Virus record (IMG/VR): IMGVR_UViG_3300048837_000192
Location: 1-22,189 of that record
DNA: 22,189 nucleotides
Source of the DNA: a virus
Strand: one strand, 5' to 3'
Within the stretch, counting starts at the first letter, position 1. Each line of letters begins with the position of its first letter. Shown in pieces: positions 3,149 through 20,132 of the stretch. The notes under the pieces were generated by a model, which saw only the letters and a list, made by a program, of their open reading frames with translations, did not search any database and was not told the origin of the DNA. Made by a program: the position numbers and the translations under genes.

Positions 3149-5386
3149 TCAGTAGGTGGCAGCGGGCGCCGGCAACAGCATCGGCCGGTCATCGCTTCGT
3201 GATTGCATGGCCGGCACCTGGGCGGCCGGCGCGAGCGTCTGGGCGATCCAGGCTTCGCGCTGCGCGGCGGTTGCCGATGGCACGCCGATGTGGCGCATCA
3301 GGCGCACCATCTCCGGGGCCTTGGCCAGTGCCTTGATGGCGGCGCGCTGCTGCTCCGGCTTCTTCGCCCGCAGCAGCCGCTCGAACTCCGGCGAGACAAG
3401 CAGCTTGTCTACGGCTCGGATCGCTTCTGGCTTCGCGCCTTTCGTGAGAGCAGACGCGATGGCACCGCCAACACCAGGCCCAAGTACGCTGCCCACAGCA
3501 GTGCCCACAGTCGCACCAACCGCACCGCGACGCGCCGCGTCATACAGGCGACCAGCCAACGTATCAGGGTCACTGAACTGCTCCCGGGCGGCCTGGATGC
3601 GGCCGGTGGTGATCCGCTCGCGCGAGGCCGCATTGACGGCCTTGCTGACCCGGTACAGGTCACTGAGCTGCTTGCGCGATTCTGCCGGCAGATTCGACAT
3701 GACGGCCGAGTACGCCTGCTTGTTCTTCAGCAGTCCTTCGTACCACTTTTCATAGCGCACGAAGCTGACCGGGCCACGGGTCTCCGCGGTTCGGAAGGCC
3801 GTCAGCAGGCCGGCCGCCGTCACCTCGGTGCGCATCGAAGCCGGCACCGCGGCCAGGATGCGGCCCAGCTTGTCGGCGTCGCCCTTGGCCAGCGCTGCGG
3901 TCGCGGTCGACAGCGGCGATGCCAGGCTCTTGTCGATCTCGCGGCCGAACAGCGCCACCATGTCGTCCTCGACGCCCTTGCGCATGCGCGAGGCGTACTG
4001 CGCGGCGAGGTAGTTCCACCGCTGGCCGGACGCATCGGCCACCCGCAGCTGATCGTCGGAGAGCAGGCCGTAATACTTCTTCGCCAGCCCCACGTCGGCA
4101 TCCGCGAACGGGCCGCCGCGGGCCGTCACCGCGCCCACGTCGCGGCGCACATCGTCGAGCAGCGCATACGTTGGCTGGCGGCCGTCCTCACCCGGCGTCA
4201 GGCGGCGCATGATCTCGCGTTCCATGGCCGACAGGTTCTCGGCCCCGCCAAGCTCGTCAGCGCGGCGCCGCAGGAAGGCCAGAGCGCCTTCGGCAGGGGC
4301 CGGCGTGGTCGGCGGAAGACCGGCCTTGACCTTGCCGTACAGCGTCTTCTCCATGGCCGCCAGGTCGTCGATGCGGCCGAGCTGCGCGCGCTTCACGCCC
4401 TCGGAAATCGCGCTGACGTCGGCGCCGCCGATGTCGTCGACGATCTTCGATGCGCGCTCGGCCACCTTCGTCAGCCCGGCGATTTCCGCCGTGCGGGCCT
4501 CGCTGCCCGGGATGGACTTGACTGCCTGGGCCAGCTCGCGGAACGCCTGATTCGTCGTCACGTGGTCGGGCTGCAGGTACTCGCGGATGCCGAGCCGGTC
4601 GGCGGCTGCGACGACCTTGGGGTCCGGCGCGGCTGCCTGGGCCAGCGTCGCCTGCGCCTTTGGAGACTCGGCCACCGCAGCGCGGCGCGCGGTCTGCGTC
4701 AACGCCGTGAGCGACTGCGCGGCGGCCGGCGCCGCAGCCTGGGCAACCGGCGCCGCGGCAGCAGCCGCAGGCTGTTGGGTGGCCGGCGCCGCACCGCGCG
4801 CCAGCGTGCTGTCGATGGTCGATGCGACCAGCGGCGCCGCGGTCTGCCGCGCCGCAGTGGCGCCGCGCGCCAGCGTGGCCATCTCGCCCGTCAGCGGCGC
4901 GACGGGCAGCATCTGCTGCATAACCCGGCCAACGGTCGCCGCCTGCTCCTGGCCCTGCTCGGTGCGCGGCGCATACGTCAGCGCCTGCGCGCCCTGGGCG
5001 GCCGACTGCTCGACGAGGTTGGCCACCTCGCGCGTTCCGATATTTCCGCTCAGGATGCCTTCTGCGATACCCTTGACTGCGCCGTAAGCCATCCCGGCGG
5101 TTCCGCCAACCGCCCCGGTGGCCACGTTCAGCGCGGCCTCTCCAGTGCCGACCGCGCGCTGCGCCAGCGTGGGCTGCGGCTGGGCCTGCGCCACGGCCAC
5201 CCGGGCGGCCTCGCCCTCCTGGCCGGGGATGGCCGCCGCGCGCCCGCCGTCGATGTGCACCAGCTTTCGGCCGGCGAACTCGCGGTCGGCGCGCTCCTGC
5301 ACCTCGCGCGGCGTGGCGTCGTCGGGCACGCCGTCGTAGACGTGCTGCGAGCCATCGGCGAAGGTCAGCGTGACGCGGCGGGCCAT
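3149..5386 (-). CDS. Large DNA ejection protein, P22 gp16-like by position
   Basis: A 745-residue protein. The ATG at 5386 is chosen because it follows the previous stop by 4 bases with a GGTGA ribosome binding site; an in-frame upstream extension (to 5413) would overlap the previous gene. Residues 4-47 form a small beta-rich domain (TLTFADGSQHVYDGVP, then DATPREVQERA) that I recognise as a recurrent N-terminus of phage injection proteins. Residues 90-115 are Gly/Ala-rich and could insert in membrane. Residues 200-225 are Ala/Pro/Gln low complexity. The middle is long and helical, and residues 621-651 form a second Gly-rich hydrophobic stretch. P22 gp16 is packaged in the head and ejected to carry DNA across the inner membrane. 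The last place in the 7-20-16 order, just before the tailspike, supports the same role. Similarity to gp16 itself is by context and architecture only. Confidence 0.8.
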   Translation of the reverse strand: MARRVTLTFADGSQHVYDGVPDDATPREVQERADREFAGRKLVHIDGGRAAAIPGQEGEAARVAVAQAQPQPTLAQRAVGTGEAALNVATGAVGGTAGMAYGAVKGIAEGILSGNIGTREVANLVEQSAAQGAQALTYAPRTEQGQEQAATVGRVMQQMLPVAPLTGEMATLARGATAARQTAAPLVASTIDSTLARGAAPATQQPAAAAAAPVAQAAAPAAAQSLTALTQTARRAAVAESPKAQATLAQAAAPDPKVVAAADRLGIREYLQPDHVTTNQAFRELAQAVKSIPGSEARTAEIAGLTKVAERASKIVDDIGGADVSAISEGVKRAQLGRIDDLAAMEKTLYGKVKAGLPPTTPAPAEGALAFLRRRADELGGAENLSAMEREIMRRLTPGEDGRQPTYALLDDVRRDVGAVTARGGPFADADVGLAKKYYGLLSDDQLRVADASGQRWNYLAAQYASRMRKGVEDDMVALFGREIDKSLASPLSTATAALAKGDADKLGRILAAVPASMRTEVTAAGLLTAFRTAETRGPVSFVRYEKWYEGLLKNKQAYSAVMSNLPAESRKQLSDLYRVSKAVNAASRERITTGRIQAAREQFSDPDTLAGRLYDAARRGAVGATVGTAVGSVLGPGVGGAIASALTKGAKPEAIRAVDKLLVSPEFERLLRAKKPEQQRAAIKALAKAPEMVRLMRHIGVPSATAAQREAWIAQTLAPAAQVPAMQSRSDDRPMLLPAPAATY

Positions 5387-14962: not shown

Positions 14963-16186
14963 TCAGGTCTGGTTCGCCAGGATCAGGCCGCACTTCTCCG
15001 GGTCCAGCACCGTGGCCGCGTACAGCGTGGTGTGGCGCACGAAGAGCTTGCCGGTCTGGGCGTTGAGCTGCGCCACCATGACCAGCGGCACGCCGTTCTT
15101 CGTGGTGGCCGTCATCACCTCGGCGCCAGTGCCGGTCGGGAAGTTCAGCCGACCGAAGTCGAGCGTCACCGCGCCCTGCGCCCAGAAGGCGTTCACCGAC
15201 TTGGTGGCCGTGTTCAGGAACGTCAGCGGGGCGTTGTTGGCTGCCTGGGCGCTGCAGTTCTGGTACGGGCCGGTGATGACGATCTTCGGCGTGATGACGA
15301 GGTTCGCCGTGCCGCCACCGCTGATGACGCGGAACGTCATCGGGATGCCGGTGTCGCTCTTGTCGATCATGTGCACGGCGTTGACGCCGCTGATCGTGAA
15401 GGCGTCGCCGTTCTTGATGTTGGCGATGTTGGCGCCCGAGACCGTCAGAGCACCGAACCGGTTGTCGGTCGGCGCGCTGCCGGTCATGGCCGTGACCGTG
15501 TGCGACGTGTTGCCGCTGACCACCGTCGACGTGACCGTGCCGACAGCGGCCAGATTCGACACGTTGTCGGTGCGGAAGGTCTTAAAGGTGGCCACGTCCG
15601 GCACGCGCGAGCGGGCATAGGCGTCCTTCGACCAGTCGCTGAGGTAGGCCTTGCCGCCCAGGTCGCCGCTGATCGACAGGTAGTCGAGCGGGTTCATGAA
15701 CAGCTTCTTCTCGCCTTCAGCGATGCCGCGGGCGATCATGTGGGCCTCGGCGGTGGCGCCGTCGGACCAGGCCAGTGCGCCGACCTTTTTCACGATGATG
15801 GCCGCGTTCAGGCGCACCGCGTCATACAGGTTCTTGTCGATCTCGGCGGCCAGGCGCAGTGCCGCGGCGCGGCCCATGCGCTGCATGTGCTGCGGGTCGC
15901 GCAGTTCCTTGGCGTCCAGCTCGTAGATCACGTTGTCCGGCGTGCGGTACACCGTGGGGACGAAGCGCTCGATCACGTCGGTGCGCGTGCCGGCGGACAC
16001 GTCCAGCCCGGTCACGACGGCGGCGTGGTAGTTCTGCTTCTTGTAGAAGGTGTCGCCGGCCCGCTGCATGGCGGTGGCGTCGGGGTAGGAAGTCTCGGCC
16101 TCGCGGCTGATGACGCAGGCGGCGTCGAAGCCTTCGACGACCTCCTCGAACATCAGTTCGAGGTCTTGGGCGAGTGCGTTGGGCAT
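14963..16186 (-). CDS. Major capsid (coat) protein, P22 gp5-like
   Basis: A 407-residue protein (P22 gp5 is 430). The ATG at 16186 has AGGAG 6 bases upstream. The N-terminus MPNALAQDLELMFEEVVEGF and ACVISREAETSYPDA, then the GDTFYKKQNY and DVIERFVPTVYRTPDNVIYE segments, follow the pattern of the P22 coat family. That family builds the T=7 shell with an HK97 fold and an extra inserted domain. Later parts fit too: MRFRVISGGG-type and VITPKIVITGPYQNCSAQAA strands, then NLAFHRNAF-like equivalents (TKSVNAFWAQGAVTLDFG) and a C-terminal VRHTTLYAATVLDPEKCGL segment. There is no maturation cleavage signal, as in P22. It lies between a structured leader and a terminator, which suggests separately controlled, high expression. 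Confidence 0.9.
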   Translation of the reverse strand: MPNALAQDLELMFEEVVEGFDAACVISREAETSYPDATAMQRAGDTFYKKQNYHAAVVTGLDVSAGTRTDVIERFVPTVYRTPDNVIYELDAKELRDPQHMQRMGRAAALRLAAEIDKNLYDAVRLNAAIIVKKVGALAWSDGATAEAHMIARGIAEGEKKLFMNPLDYLSISGDLGGKAYLSDWSKDAYARSRVPDVATFKTFRTDNVSNLAAVGTVTSTVVSGNTSHTVTAMTGSAPTDNRFGALTVSGANIANIKNGDAFTISGVNAVHMIDKSDTGIPMTFRVISGGGTANLVITPKIVITGPYQNCSAQAANNAPLTFLNTATKSVNAFWAQGAVTLDFGRLNFPTGTGAEVMTATTKNGVPLVMVAQLNAQTGKLFVRHTTLYAATVLDPEKCGLILANQT

Positions 16187-16321: not shown

Positions 16322-16344
16322 GGCGGCCTGATGCTCAGGCTGCC
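16322..16344 (-). promoter_or_regulatory. Stem-loop spanning the scaffold stop codon
   Basis: On the minus strand GGCAGCCUGA pairs with UCAGGCCGCC around a GCA loop: 10 positions with one A-C mismatch and a perfect 6-bp apical part. The scaffold UGA stop codon lies in the left arm. No U-run follows, so intrinsic termination is unlikely. It could be a processing or stability element that lets scaffold and coat messages differ in amount, or could affect translation past the stop. Confidence 0.45.
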
Positions 16345-17288
16345 TTGCGCGCGGCGCGCTTGGCCGCGAGGTATTGCGTGTAGTCGCCGGTCCGCTGGGC
16401 CTCGGCGTGCAGCTGGGTCAGGCGCCCATGCGCCACGATGCCGGCGCCAGCACCGGCGCCGCGCACACGTTGGTCGGGAGGCGGGGCGGTCTTGCGGGGG
16501 GTGGTCTTCACCTTGGCCTCCAGTTCCTTCAGCGCCCAGGTGAACTTCACCGGGTTCGTGATCGCGGCCAGTTGGCGCGCGCCCTTCGGGTTCTTGCCCA
16601 GCGCGTACCGCAGCAGGGCCGCGGTCTTCGGGTCGTCGGGGGCGTCGAGGATGATTCCCTGCTGCATGACCGAGAAGGTCTCCTCGAACGTCGCCAGCGC
16701 GTCGTCGGCGTCGGCGACCTTCAGCGTCGCGGCGGCCTTGCCCACGGCGTCGAGGCGGGCCAGCCATTGCTGCTGGGCCTGCTCGGCGGCCTGGGCCTGG
16801 GCGCGCTGATGCTGCTCGGCCGCGGCCTTGCGGGCGTGCCAGCCCTCCAGCTCGGCGGCGAACTTGTCCTCGTCGAAGTCGCAGCCGGCCAGCGTGGGCT
16901 TGTCGCCGACGACGATGGCCGCCTGAGCCGGCCGCGCGGTGGAAAGCTGCGCCTCCAGCTCGCGGATGCGCCGCTCCTTCTCGCGGTTCGCCTTGCGCAG
17001 CTCGCGCACCCAGTCGGGCGCCTTGCCCTGGTCGGCGTCGGCCGCCGGCTCGTCGCCGATGGTGACCACCAGCTCGTCGGCCTCTCCGTCGTTGGCTGCC
17101 GCCGCGCCTTCGCCAGCGTCGCCGGCATCGGCTGCCGCATCGGTGGCGCCGCCTTCGGTGTCGGCCGCGCCGTCGTCGGCGGCCTGGTCGCCGTCTTCGG
17201 CCTGCTGGCCCTGCTGCTCGTCGCCTTCCTCGGTGCCGGGCTGCAGTTCGTCGTCGTCGCGGTCCAGGGTGTCAGCGTCGCCGGCCAT
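16335..17288 (-). CDS. Scaffolding protein, P22 gp8-like
   Basis: A 317-residue protein (P22 gp8 is 303). The ATG at 17288 follows the previous stop by 2 bases. Residues 1-90 are extremely acidic and rich in Asp, Glu, Ala and Gly (LDRDDDELQPGTEEGDEQQG, then ELVVTIGDEPAAD). Residues 91-115 are a basic-acidic coiled coil (VRELRKANREKERRIRELEA). Residues 160-190 are Gln/Ala-rich helix. Residues 240-285 carry a basic Lys/Pro/Arg segment (KTTPRKTAPPPDQRVRG), and the C-terminus is basic (YTQYLAAKRAARKAA). An acidic disordered N-terminus and a basic helical C-terminus that binds coat protein are the hallmark of P22-type scaffolds. It assembles with coat into procapsids and exits before DNA packaging. 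It precedes coat, as in P22, and its stop codon lies in a stem-loop. Confidence 0.85.
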   Translation of the reverse strand: MAGDADTLDRDDDELQPGTEEGDEQQGQQAEDGDQAADDGAADTEGGATDAAADAGDAGEGAAAANDGEADELVVTIGDEPAADADQGKAPDWVRELRKANREKERRIRELEAQLSTARPAQAAIVVGDKPTLAGCDFDEDKFAAELEGWHARKAAAEQHQRAQAQAAEQAQQQWLARLDAVGKAAATLKVADADDALATFEETFSVMQQGIILDAPDDPKTAALLRYALGKNPKGARQLAAITNPVKFTWALKELEAKVKTTPRKTAPPPDQRVRGAGAGAGIVAHGRLTQLHAEAQRTGDYTQYLAAKRAARKAA

Positions 17289-17290
17289 GG

Positions 17291-17512
17291 TCAGGCTCCC
17301 GTCTCGATGCTGACGTTGCGCAGTTGCAGCCGCAGGGCGAAGGTGTTCGCGCCGGACGGGTGCAGGCCAGGGATGCCCGTGCTTTCGACCACCGCGTCAG
17401 CCGTCAGGGCGTACACGGCGCCGATCTTCGGCAGCTCGGTGATGCCCAGCGCCGCCACCTGATCGGGCAGCAGCGTGATCCGCGGCGGGTCGTTCAGCGG
17501 GACAGTCGGCAT
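17291..17512 (-). CDS. Small capsid-staple-like protein
   Basis: A 73-residue protein. The ATG at 17512 has GGAG 8 bases upstream. Its pattern, LGITELPKIGAVYALTADAV followed after a loop by FALRLQLRNVSIE, resembles the small capsid 'staple' proteins (Gp77/YSD1 gp16 type). Those typically read LGI-x2-LP-K-[IV]-G, then a strand with A-x-V-x-S, then a final L-x-[IL]-Q-[IL] strand, and they bind the outside of HK97-fold shells to strengthen them. It lies between portal and scaffold, as I would expect for such a protein, and is first in the putative capsid transcription unit. The match is recalled by eye only; an unrelated decoration or assembly protein is possible. Confidence 0.6.
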   Translation of the reverse strand: MPTVPLNDPPRITLLPDQVAALGITELPKIGAVYALTADAVVESTGIPGLHPSGANTFALRLQLRNVSIETGA

Positions 17513-17528
17513 GCCGTGCGCTCCGGTG

Positions 17529-17545
17529 TGTCTGGAATCCAGACA
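17529..17545. repeat. Perfect palindrome, possible operator or 5' mRNA hairpin
   Basis: TGTCTG-N5-CAGACA is a perfect inverted repeat: 7-bp arms TGTCTGG/CCAGACA around a 3-base centre. On the minus strand it starts where transcription from the proposed promoter would begin, so it would be either an operator over the start site or the 5'-terminal hairpin of the message. It repeats the half-sites of the palindrome at 17563-17579. Confidence 0.6.
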
Positions 17546-17580
17546 GCGCGAATTGTGCGCGATGTCTGATTTTCAGGCAA
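17545..17580 (-). promoter_or_regulatory. Candidate sigma70 promoter for the staple-scaffold-coat unit
   Basis: On the minus strand TTGCCT (17580-17575; four of six bases match TTGACA) is separated by exactly 17 bases from CACAAT (17557-17552; four of six match TATAAT). The predicted start, about 7 bases on, falls near 17545. The gap is also less GC-rich than the surrounding coding DNA. A GGAG ribosome binding site and the ATG of the staple-like gene follow. The hexamers are only moderate matches, so the call leans on spacing and context. Confidence 0.4.
17563..17579. repeat. Second palindrome with the same half-sites, overlapping the -35 region
   Basis: On the minus strand TGCCTG-AAAAT-CAGACA has the same half-sites as the palindrome at 17529-17545, with one substitution. 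The centres are 34 bp apart, and the two 17-bp elements are separated by 17 bp. It overlaps the proposed -35 box and part of the spacer, where a bound protein would block or position RNA polymerase. Confidence 0.5.
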
Positions 17581-17583
17581 CGA

Positions 17584-19641
17584 TCATGCTCCGGTGGGCC
17601 GCGGCGGGCTCAAAAGCCGCTGCAAGGCGTCGGCGCTGGCAATCTGCTGGCTGTTCACCTCGCCCATCGTCTCGGCCATGATCTTGGCGCGCTGGGCCTG
17701 CTTCAGGTCGGCGTCGGCCACCTTCTGCACGGTGCTGGCGCGGGCCGATGCGGCGTTCGCCTTCGCCTCCTCGGCCATGGCCAGCAGCGCCTGCTGCTGC
17801 GGGTCTGGCTGCTGGCCGGCGGCCTCCTCGGCCAGCTCGGCCTGCTCCTCCTCGGTGGGCTTGACGATGCCCATGCGCACGCCACGGCGCCGCGCCCAGT
17901 CCTGCACGTCGCCCAGGCCCTCGCCCTCGATGTTGGTCAGCGCGACCATGGTCAGCGCCTGCAGCGTCTCGGGGTCTTGCGTCATGCCCATGAGGCCGGT
18001 GACGGCGCGCACGGTGGCCGCGCGCTTGCTGCTGCTGCTCGGGCCGACGTCGACCGCCACGTCGAAGTGCGCCGCGGTCATGTCGTTATCGACCACCTCG
18101 CGCGCCGTGTCCTCGTCGTATGCGGGCTTGTTGATCACCACGCTGGCGGCCTTGCCGTCCGCGCTGATCGTCTTCATCTTGCGCTCGCTCTCGACGGCCA
18201 GGTCTCGCATCATCGACAGCCAGATTTCACCGGCGCGCTTCATGCTCTTGGCCAGGTTGCTCATGTAGATGAACACCTGCATGTCGAGCCGGTTCTGAAT
18301 CAGCTCCACCGCCTTTCCGCTGATGTTCGGCCGCACTTCCTCGCCGGCCTGCTGGTTGCCCAGCAGATCGGACAGCGCCTGCTCGGCGATCTGCGCCAGG
18401 GCCGCCATCGCCGCGGGGATGTTCGGCGCCTTGGTGTAGTTCAGCGGGCCGGGCGGCTGCGGCTGGCCGTTGGCGTCCACCACCTGATTGACCAGCAGGT
18501 ATGGCAGCTTGTCCACGTTGTCGCGCGCCCAGGTCAGCGCGTGGCCGGCGATCTGCTGCGGCGTGAAGATGGGTTTTTCGATGTCGAAGCGCCCGGCCAT
18601 CTCGGCCAGCCACGACAGCAGCATGTTGTAGAGCCGCTGGGCGTCCTTGGCCAGGCGCACGTGGCCCATGCAGCGCTCCACGCCGTCCACCACCCAGCGC
18701 TTTCCGTAGTAGGGCACGATGGGGATGCAGCGCCCGGCGATTTCCTCGCCGTCGCTGAGCATCTTGCCGCCGCTCATCATGTACTTCATGACGCGCTTGC
18801 GCTTCACCCGCTTCTGCCGGACCTCGCGGAAGCCGGTGGCCAGCAGCTCGTCGAGCATGTCCGGGTCGGCGTCGAGCTGGGCCTGGGTGACGCGCATCTC
18901 CGGCGCCTCGTCGTCCAGGCCGCGGAAGAAGCGCACCAGCTCGGTGTCCTCCTCGATGCGGTAGTGCTCGCAGATCCAGGTGATGTCAGCGGCCGACCAC
19001 TCGAACAGCCACGGCGTGACCTCCTTCGGCCAGGTCGTCGGGTCGTCGCCGTATTCCTTGCGGTAGGCCTTGGTCGGCAGCGGCGTCAGCACGTAGCAGC
19101 GCGTCGCGTCGCTCTTGTCGTAGCGCTTGGCGCCCAGGTCGAAGAAGACGCAGGTGTCGGCGTCGAAGATCGGCTCCATCGCCACGCGCTGGCGGGTGTC
19201 TTCGTCGTCGTCCTCGTTCTCGTAGCAGGCGCGCAGCCGCCAGGCGCCGAAGCCGCCGCCGACGCCTTCCTCGAAGCAGTTGTCGTAGGCATCGTCGGCG
19301 CTGCACCGCTGCTCGTCCGCGCGGAACAGGCCGTCGCAGGTGTCGGCCATCTCGTTCTCGTCGCCGTCGTGCGGTTGGAAGTCGACGGTGATGCGGTTCG
19401 CGCGGTACTCGTTGAAGATGCGAATGACCGCCAGGTGCACCTTGTTGAACTCGAAGCGCGCCTTGTTGGCGAACTGGTCGCCCGTTGGGCCTTCCCACTG
19501 CTGGCCGGCGATGCTGTAGAAGCGGCGGTCCTCGATGGCCTGCAAGCGCTCCTCGCGCACCGCTGACCAGATGTCGTCGAAGTCCTCCAGCGCCTCGCGG
19601 TGGATGCGGGCCAGCCGGTCTTCCTTGCTCTCTCGTGCCAT
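17584..19641 (-). CDS. Portal protein, P22 gp1-like
   Basis: A 685-residue protein (P22 gp1 is 725). The ATG at 19641 has AGGGA 8 bases upstream. The N-terminal segment with FYSIAGQQWEG, NKVHLAVIRIFNEYRANRIT and VDFQPHDGD, then an acidic GVGGGFGAWRLRACYENEDD region and the FDADTCVFFDLGAKRYDKSD segment, are characteristic of P22-type portals. The last 100 residues are helical and Gln/Ala/Glu-rich (EEEQAELAEEAAGQQPDPQQ onward), matching the C-terminal barrel that projects into the head. Twelve copies form the channel through which the terminase pumps DNA, and the gp4 adaptor docks on it. It is separated from the upstream HEAVH protein gene by 44 bases and followed by a 71-base regulatory-looking gap. 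Confidence 0.9.
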   Translation of the reverse strand: MARESKEDRLARIHREALEDFDDIWSAVREERLQAIEDRRFYSIAGQQWEGPTGDQFANKARFEFNKVHLAVIRIFNEYRANRITVDFQPHDGDENEMADTCDGLFRADEQRCSADDAYDNCFEEGVGGGFGAWRLRACYENEDDDEDTRQRVAMEPIFDADTCVFFDLGAKRYDKSDATRCYVLTPLPTKAYRKEYGDDPTTWPKEVTPWLFEWSAADITWICEHYRIEEDTELVRFFRGLDDEAPEMRVTQAQLDADPDMLDELLATGFREVRQKRVKRKRVMKYMMSGGKMLSDGEEIAGRCIPIVPYYGKRWVVDGVERCMGHVRLAKDAQRLYNMLLSWLAEMAGRFDIEKPIFTPQQIAGHALTWARDNVDKLPYLLVNQVVDANGQPQPPGPLNYTKAPNIPAAMAALAQIAEQALSDLLGNQQAGEEVRPNISGKAVELIQNRLDMQVFIYMSNLAKSMKRAGEIWLSMMRDLAVESERKMKTISADGKAASVVINKPAYDEDTAREVVDNDMTAAHFDVAVDVGPSSSSKRAATVRAVTGLMGMTQDPETLQALTMVALTNIEGEGLGDVQDWARRRGVRMGIVKPTEEEQAELAEEAAGQQPDPQQQALLAMAEEAKANAASARASTVQKVADADLKQAQRAKIMAETMGEVNSQQIASADALQRLLSPPRPTGA

Positions 19642-19685
19642 AGCGCGTCCCTGCTCAGGGTCGTGCGCTGCTGGCGGCGCGGTAC

Positions 19686-20132
19686 TCAGCGGACCAGCGC
19701 GGGGCCGGTCGGGCAGGCCCGATTATCGGGCGAAGGGGCCGGTTTGGCACATTCGTCGATCCTCCGCGCGTACTCGCTCAGCAGCTCCTGCGCAATCGCC
19801 TGGATGCCGTAGGCCTCCTGCTCGATGCCGGGCGTGTTTTCGCCGATGCCGCTGCAGTAGCGCTGCCAGACGTGCACGGCCTCATGGACCAGCACGCCGG
19901 CAATCTCGATTGGCGTGTTCTCGGGGCCAGGACGGATGCAGACGATGCACACCTCCTCGCCGCCGTCGTTCCTGGCGTAGTGCGTCTTGCCGCCGGCCTC
20001 TTGGCACCACACGTCGTCGGCCGGGATCAGGTTCAGGTGCGCCAGTGCCTGCACGTACTCGGCCTGCGACAAGCACAGGCACAGGTACGGGCCAGGCCAG
20101 GCGATGCGGCGGTCAAGCCATCGCGTCTTCAT
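19686..20132 (-). CDS. Cys-rich putative zinc metallopeptidase (HEAVH)
   Basis: A 148-residue protein. The ATG at 20132 overlaps the large-terminase stop as ATGA. Residues 80-90 read VLVHEAVHVWQ, a textbook HExxH zinc-peptidase helix (His83, Glu84, His87). About 17 residues later EQEAYGIQAIAQEL offers Glu106 as the third ligand, the spacing of gluzincin-type or SprT-like small peptidases. There are eight cysteines (18, 20, 43, 62, 65, 93, 128, 140), including CxC and CxxC pairs, so metal or disulfide structure beyond the active site is possible. No signal peptide or membrane helix is seen. P22 has no such gene between terminase and portal, and P22-type capsids need no protease. Its substrate is unknown: it might act on a host protein, an ejected protein or a packaging component. 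Confidence 0.72.
   Translation of the reverse strand: MKTRWLDRRIAWPGPYLCLCLSQAEYVQALAHLNLIPADDVWCQEAGGKTHYARNDGGEEVCIVCIRPGPENTPIEIAGVLVHEAVHVWQRYCSGIGENTPGIEQEAYGIQAIAQELLSEYARRIDECAKPAPSPDNRACPTGPALVR

Follow-up and report, generated by a model that had tools for sequence, protein, structure and literature searches.

The 71-base gap behind the portal gene of a P22-like virus fragment holds a candidate internal promoter whose -10 element is bracketed by two palindromes (dyads) with shared arms. Judged from sequence comparison, the chances seem about even that an internal late promoter lies in the gap and that the dyads are an operator pair for one dimeric DNA-binding regulator. The interest of the site is that relatives of P22 have promoters and structured leaders at this position.

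The head-gene module and its gap

The stretch analyzed (the window) is a virus fragment of 22,189 bases without early genes. Its minus strand encodes a head module of P22 type, in the order terminase, portal, 71-base gap, an ORF of 73 amino acids (ORF73), scaffold, coat, and P22_Tail-4. The features in and around the gap are:

17584..19641, minus strand: portal gene, P22-like (Pfam PF16510, PHROG 156)
17575..17580, minus strand: -35 element TTGCCT (promoter scoring)
17579-17563, minus strand: dyad 1, TGCCTG-AAAAT-CAGACA = TGCCTGAAAATCAGACA, one arm mismatch (direct reading)
17552..17557, minus strand: -10 element CACAAT, 17-bp spacer (promoter scoring)
17540..17568, minus strand: larger inverted repeat of 29 bases, CAGACATCGCG-CACAATT-CGCGCTGTCTG (direct reading)
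17545-17529, minus strand: dyad 2, TGTCTG-GATTC-CAGACA = TGTCTGGATTCCAGACA, perfect, 7-bp arms (direct reading)
17521..17524, minus strand: Shine-Dalgarno-like GGAG preceding ORF73 (direct reading)
17291..17512, minus strand: ORF73, lineage-specific, first gene behind the promoter (ORF reading and homology searches)
16335..17288, minus strand: scaffold gene (PHROG 648)
14963..16186, minus strand: coat gene, P22 gp5 family (PF11651)

The distance from the portal stop to the next ATG is 71 bp (17583-17513, with the ATG at 17512), and in the gene-sense direction up to this ATG the gap reads TCGTTGCCTGAAAATCAGACATCGCGCACAATTCGCGCTGTCTGGATTCCAGACACACCGGAGCGCACGGC. ORF73 has no family-level match in PHROG or Pfam and occurs only in two near-identical or close contigs. 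The initial annotation had labeled it "staple", a name that its sequence does not support, as no sequence homology to a known staple or decoration protein was found. A weak match to PHROG 825 (E 0.012) was seen, and the AlphaFold model of ORF73 (pLDDT 59) was too weak for a fold search to be based on it.

A candidate promoter preceding the capsid genes

The TTGCCT-17-CACAAT promoter scores 7.8 bits with the E. coli sigma70 matrix, which may not fit the host. It exceeds 99% of the scores obtained when the gap is dinucleotide-shuffled (p = 0.0099). Only two sigma70-like sites in the whole window reach 6.5 bits on the sense strand, and the gap promoter ranks second. Its predicted +1 is 17545, 7 nt after the -10 and identical with the first base of dyad 2. 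The geometry proposed at the outset, with dyad 1 on the -35, dyad 2 at the predicted start and the -10 between them, was recovered. An alternative promoter with dyad 2 in its spacer, as in relatives, was inspected and shows no credible -10.

For conservation, the sole close relative that is not identical to the window, L004, was used. Counted from the portal end, the gap shows 0/64 differences over 64 bases, a stretch that includes both palindromes. At fourfold sites, 62 of 312 positions differ in the portal gene and 4 of 49 in ORF73; compared with these, the conservation of the gap has p = 7e-7 (portal rate) or 0.004 (ORF73 rate).

We compared 101 non-redundant portal-scaffold gaps, taken from contigs of viruses and bacteria. 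A promoter score of at least 7 bits was found in 37 of the 101 gaps, compared with 6 of 101 control stretches of portal coding sequence. The usual form in the relatives is TTGNNN-17-TATCAT or GATAAT. The internal capsid promoter is likely to be real, supported by its score, its conservation in L004 and the finding that many relatives have a promoter at the corresponding position. The earlier proposal of an extra promoter for staple, scaffold and coat is supported as regards a promoter before capsid genes, but not as regards the staple identity. Its premise, that P22-like late operons are usually read from one promoter, agrees with the single late promoter described for P22 and phage L (PMC8022706).

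Two palindromes with shared arms

The two palindromes reported in the 71-base gap are present at the positions and sizes given before, on the gene-sense (minus) strand. Dyad 1 overlaps the -35 and the spacer and is identical in L004. The dyads are separated by 17 bp, or 34 bp from centre to centre, and are centred near -26 and +8. The 29-base repeat is made up of the inner half-sites of both dyads together with a CGCG to either side of the -10. The dyads are similar in their arms only and not outside them, and therefore do not reflect a recent duplication. No T run follows dyad 1 or dyad 2, as an intrinsic terminator would require.

It could be argued that the dyads have no regulatory role and are chance or leftover sequence. 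When the whole window was shuffled, a comparable pair (17-bp type, near-identical arms) arose somewhere in 20 of 60 shuffles, i.e. in a third of them, which is compatible with this explanation. Dinucleotide shuffles of the 71-bp gap alone gave a comparable pair in 0 of 20,000 cases, a figure that flatters the result because the pair criterion was fixed only after the palindromes had been noticed. The placement next to a promoter in 71 bp of noncoding DNA, the lack of any change over 64 nt compared with L004, and the promoters that many relatives have at the corresponding position argue against chance, which we regard as improbable.

The palindrome sequence itself appears to be confined to this lineage. 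As had been suggested, we searched for TG[TC]CTG-N5-CAGACA; the motif is shared with the gap of L004, but no further copy exists elsewhere in the 33-kb relative. The longer dyad pattern recovered only the two known contigs from the viral contigs, and the number of independent sequences with these dyads is only two. A pattern scan of viral contigs for paired dyads returned 16 matches, by a rough estimate about the chance number for 18 fixed bases in so large a collection. A search for prophages in the order to which the Pseudorhodoferax host belongs (399 genomes) gave one match, which was already known. A plasmid search with the gap returned nothing, and a search of phage DNA one weak, unrelated match.

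Paired sites at the same place in relatives

Two copies of one site beside the promoter recur in the closer relatives, with a sequence that differs by lineage. The paired site is GCGCYGATATTCGA in L005 and L007 (31 bp apart), of the ATTCAAA-N3-TTTGAAT type in L160 (32 bp apart), and CAATTCGG-N5-YTGAA in L022 (32 bp apart); in L158 the repeat spacing is 31 bp. Direct repeats at 31-32 bp are enriched among relatives with at least 59% identity (Fisher p = 0.004; control 0.64). The signal is restricted to relatives with a portal identity of at least 58-59%, and across all 101 gaps the test is not significant (Fisher 0.62); for the window alone, p = 0.06. When spacings from 12 to 60 were scanned, six of the eight strong repeats lay at 31-32. 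Dyads within the spacer of promoter cores are likewise enriched (Fisher p = 4e-4; control 0.43). In L005, L160 and L004 the pair is restricted to the portal-scaffold gap.

The sites of the relatives are centred near -21 and -52, i.e. in the spacer and upstream of the spacer, and in several relatives the downstream copy occupies the -35/-10 spacer. The pair in the window follows the same plan, with two copies of one site about three helical turns apart, in another geometry (34 bp, further downstream).

One P22-like lineage reuses a GATAG-N7-CTATC dyad at the portal, the scaffold and a third late promoter. The sites are:

G005: 21456, 23637, 30383, 30415
G020: 18579, 20799, 29820
also in G016, G018 and G019

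The third late promoter of G005 has two of these sites, 32 bp apart. The GATAG sites are likely to form a late-promoter regulon, and the reuse of one dyad at several promoters suggests a trans-acting regulator.

Possible operators or other DNA sites

If the dyads of the window are operators, both would be bound by one dimeric regulator. It would most likely be a repressor or modulator, because one dyad lies over the -35 and the other over the start site, with the -10 enclosed between them. The internal late promoter would read ORF73, scaffold and coat, and its transcripts would add to the read-through late message. Here we infer promoter firing, protein binding and the sign of the effect. The idea of an operator-flanked promoter gains from the shared arms and from the pairs in relatives; it loses in that no regulator was found, that the 33-kb relative has no additional copies, and that the sites of the relatives sit in or upstream of the spacer, not on both sides of the -10. 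In a search for an encoded repressor, as proposed before, no HTH_3 domain was found in the window or in L004, both of which are fragments, and a Pfam scan of 20 ORFs of L004 yielded NinB and no regulator.

Two other types of DNA site were considered. In Q-type late antitermination, spacer dyads would be late antiterminator elements, and the operon would be re-primed at several Q-dependent promoters. Lambdoid Q binding elements lie between the -35 and the -10 (PMC6606751), as do the dyads of the relatives, and the GATAG lineage has spacer dyads at several late promoters. However, no Q family was detected in 49 mostly non-structural ORFs of G005 and G020 (Pfam; the commonest families of the PHROGs), and the second site of the window is downstream of the -10. 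We regard a role of Q as quite improbable. Even less probable is that the dyads are operators of phage CI/Cro immunity repressors that silence the capsid genes in the lysogen. Several relatives do have genes for an integrase and an HTH_3 repressor, some as divergent pairs, but the immunity operators of G003, G005, G009, G010 and G020, compared by eye, differ from the dyads of their own gaps. Immunity operators were thus rejected in five relatives; the window fragment does not include its own immunity region.

A possible hairpin at the start of the capsid mRNA

The main alternative to an operator pair is at the level of RNA. Dyad 2 could be a 5'-terminal stem-loop protecting the capsid mRNA against RppH/RNase E, or a leader that replaces the scaffold-leader pseudoknot of relatives (see below); dyad 1 would either be incidental or contribute to another hairpin formed in read-through RNA. 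The first base of dyad 2 coincides with the predicted +1, the dyad folds into a 7-bp hairpin of -8.3 kcal/mol, and mRNAs are stabilized by 5' secondary structure (PMC3997798). The 29-base repeat could form an alternative hairpin of -12.4 kcal/mol, which competes with dyad 2 in read-through RNA. The RNA of the gap folds better than shuffles (z = -2.6), and half of the relatives have a structured leader at this place. In contrast, the stability of the leader by itself has a p value of only 0.083, leader hairpins are not enriched in the 14 relatives outside the pseudoknot group (Fisher 0.32), the window itself lacks the pseudoknot, and the repeat of the same arms in dyad 1 is left unexplained. 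The exact geometry of the previously suggested 5'-terminal hairpin stands, but relatives without a pseudoknot do not bear it out. We consider an RNA function of dyad 2 rather unlikely, and prefer operators, because a hairpin does not need the shared arms and because relatives have paired sites.

Leader RNAs at the scaffold and portal genes

Immediately upstream of the scaffold start, an H-type pseudoknot is predicted in 50 of the 101 non-redundant gaps, compared with 0.5% of shuffles; the latter rate is the fair test of existence because the sequences had been chosen for pairing. The pattern is S1-NNC-[C...]-S1'-loop-[...G]-AG. Examples are:

L089: 6085-6117
L060: 3829-3860
L179: 5113-5144
L102: 6095-6123
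L288 (PfAn1): gap 3604-3679
others

In alignment A6, 92% of the cells pair and 53 cells are changed on both sides, compared with 13.8 in shuffles. The covariation score is 0.361, compared with 0.108 or less in slid controls. The cultured Pseudomonas phage PfAn1 has the pseudoknot by eye (AGGC-ATC-[CATCA]-GCCT-CAA-[TGATG]-AG). Rfam contains no match, and this predicted scaffold-leader pseudoknot of about half of the relatives appears to be previously uncatalogued. The window scores 0 in both of its gaps, and P22 and Sf6, with gaps of 13 bp, have no room for it.

Upstream of the portal gene the window has two further features:

19722..19750, minus strand: second internal sigma70-like promoter, GTGCCA-17-GATAAT (promoter scan)
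19642..19714, minus strand: conserved structured portal-leader RNA (sequence comparison, 12 sequences)

The promoter is the only other sense-strand site of at least 6.5 bits and is unchanged in L004. Its -10 lies within the palindrome CCCGATAATCGGG. In the GATAG lineage, too, sites stand at portal and scaffold, as do the two candidate promoters of the window. The portal-leader RNA comprises a hairpin, an H-type pseudoknot (GCTG/CAGC plus GAGC/GCTC; GCGC/GCGC as the second stem in the window), and a stem including the ribosome-binding site. The 5' strand of this last stem overlaps the pseudoknot, and therefore the two may exclude each other. Compared with L004 there is 1 change in 117 nt, with the pair kept. 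The RNA also occurs in relatives (L005:4926-5003; L010:4924-5003; L030:1321-1398; others) and has no match in Rfam.

Implications for capsid-gene dosage

The proteins of portal, scaffold and coat are needed by phages in widely differing quantities, and the scaffold of P22 controls its own synthesis after transcription. P22 is described as achieving the differing amounts from one late promoter (PMC8022706). As a tentative proposal, P22-like phages may have a module that is absent from P22, consisting of dedicated promoters within the operon, paired DNA sites that differ by lineage, and the two uncatalogued leader RNAs, through which free capsid-assembly proteins would feed back on their own synthesis. 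The module would set the dosage of the capsid genes, acting at portal and scaffold, and the window would represent a branch with a DNA pair in place of the scaffold pseudoknot. If this is true, the promoters and structured leaders at portal and scaffold, together with the fast-changing DNA sites, would be testable cis elements for the control of capsid stoichiometry. As PfAn1 is cultured, the scaffold pseudoknot can be tested now.

Comparison with known systems

The late operons of P22, phage L and Sf6 (Lederbergvirus) have the same order of terminase, portal, scaffold and coat as the window, and their portal, scaffold and coat families match. In contrast, the portal-scaffold gap of P22 and Sf6 has 13 bp with neither promoter nor dyads, too little space in P22 for a promoter to fit, whereas the window has 71 bp with both and an extra ORF between the two genes.

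With its two 17-bp dyads on the -35 and the start, the site resembles the operator-flanked sigma70 promoters of lambda or P22 repressor type. Unlike those, the pair of the window lies inside a late operon, and the gap dyads of relatives differ from immunity operators. Q binding elements are similar to the sites of the relatives as lineage-specific sites in a promoter spacer, but they are direct repeats of 6-8 bp; here dyads are found, at several promoters, and no Q protein.

The putative dyad 2 hairpin, starting from the predicted first base, would be similar to the mRNA-stabilizing 5' stem-loops of the ompA or papA type, but its arms recur in a dyad further upstream. The scaffold-leader pseudoknot of the relatives, not of the window, is similar to autoregulatory phage pseudoknots of the T4 gene 32 type as an H-type leader pseudoknot just before the ribosome-binding site; it differs from T4 gene 32 in sequence and gene and in having no counterpart in Rfam.
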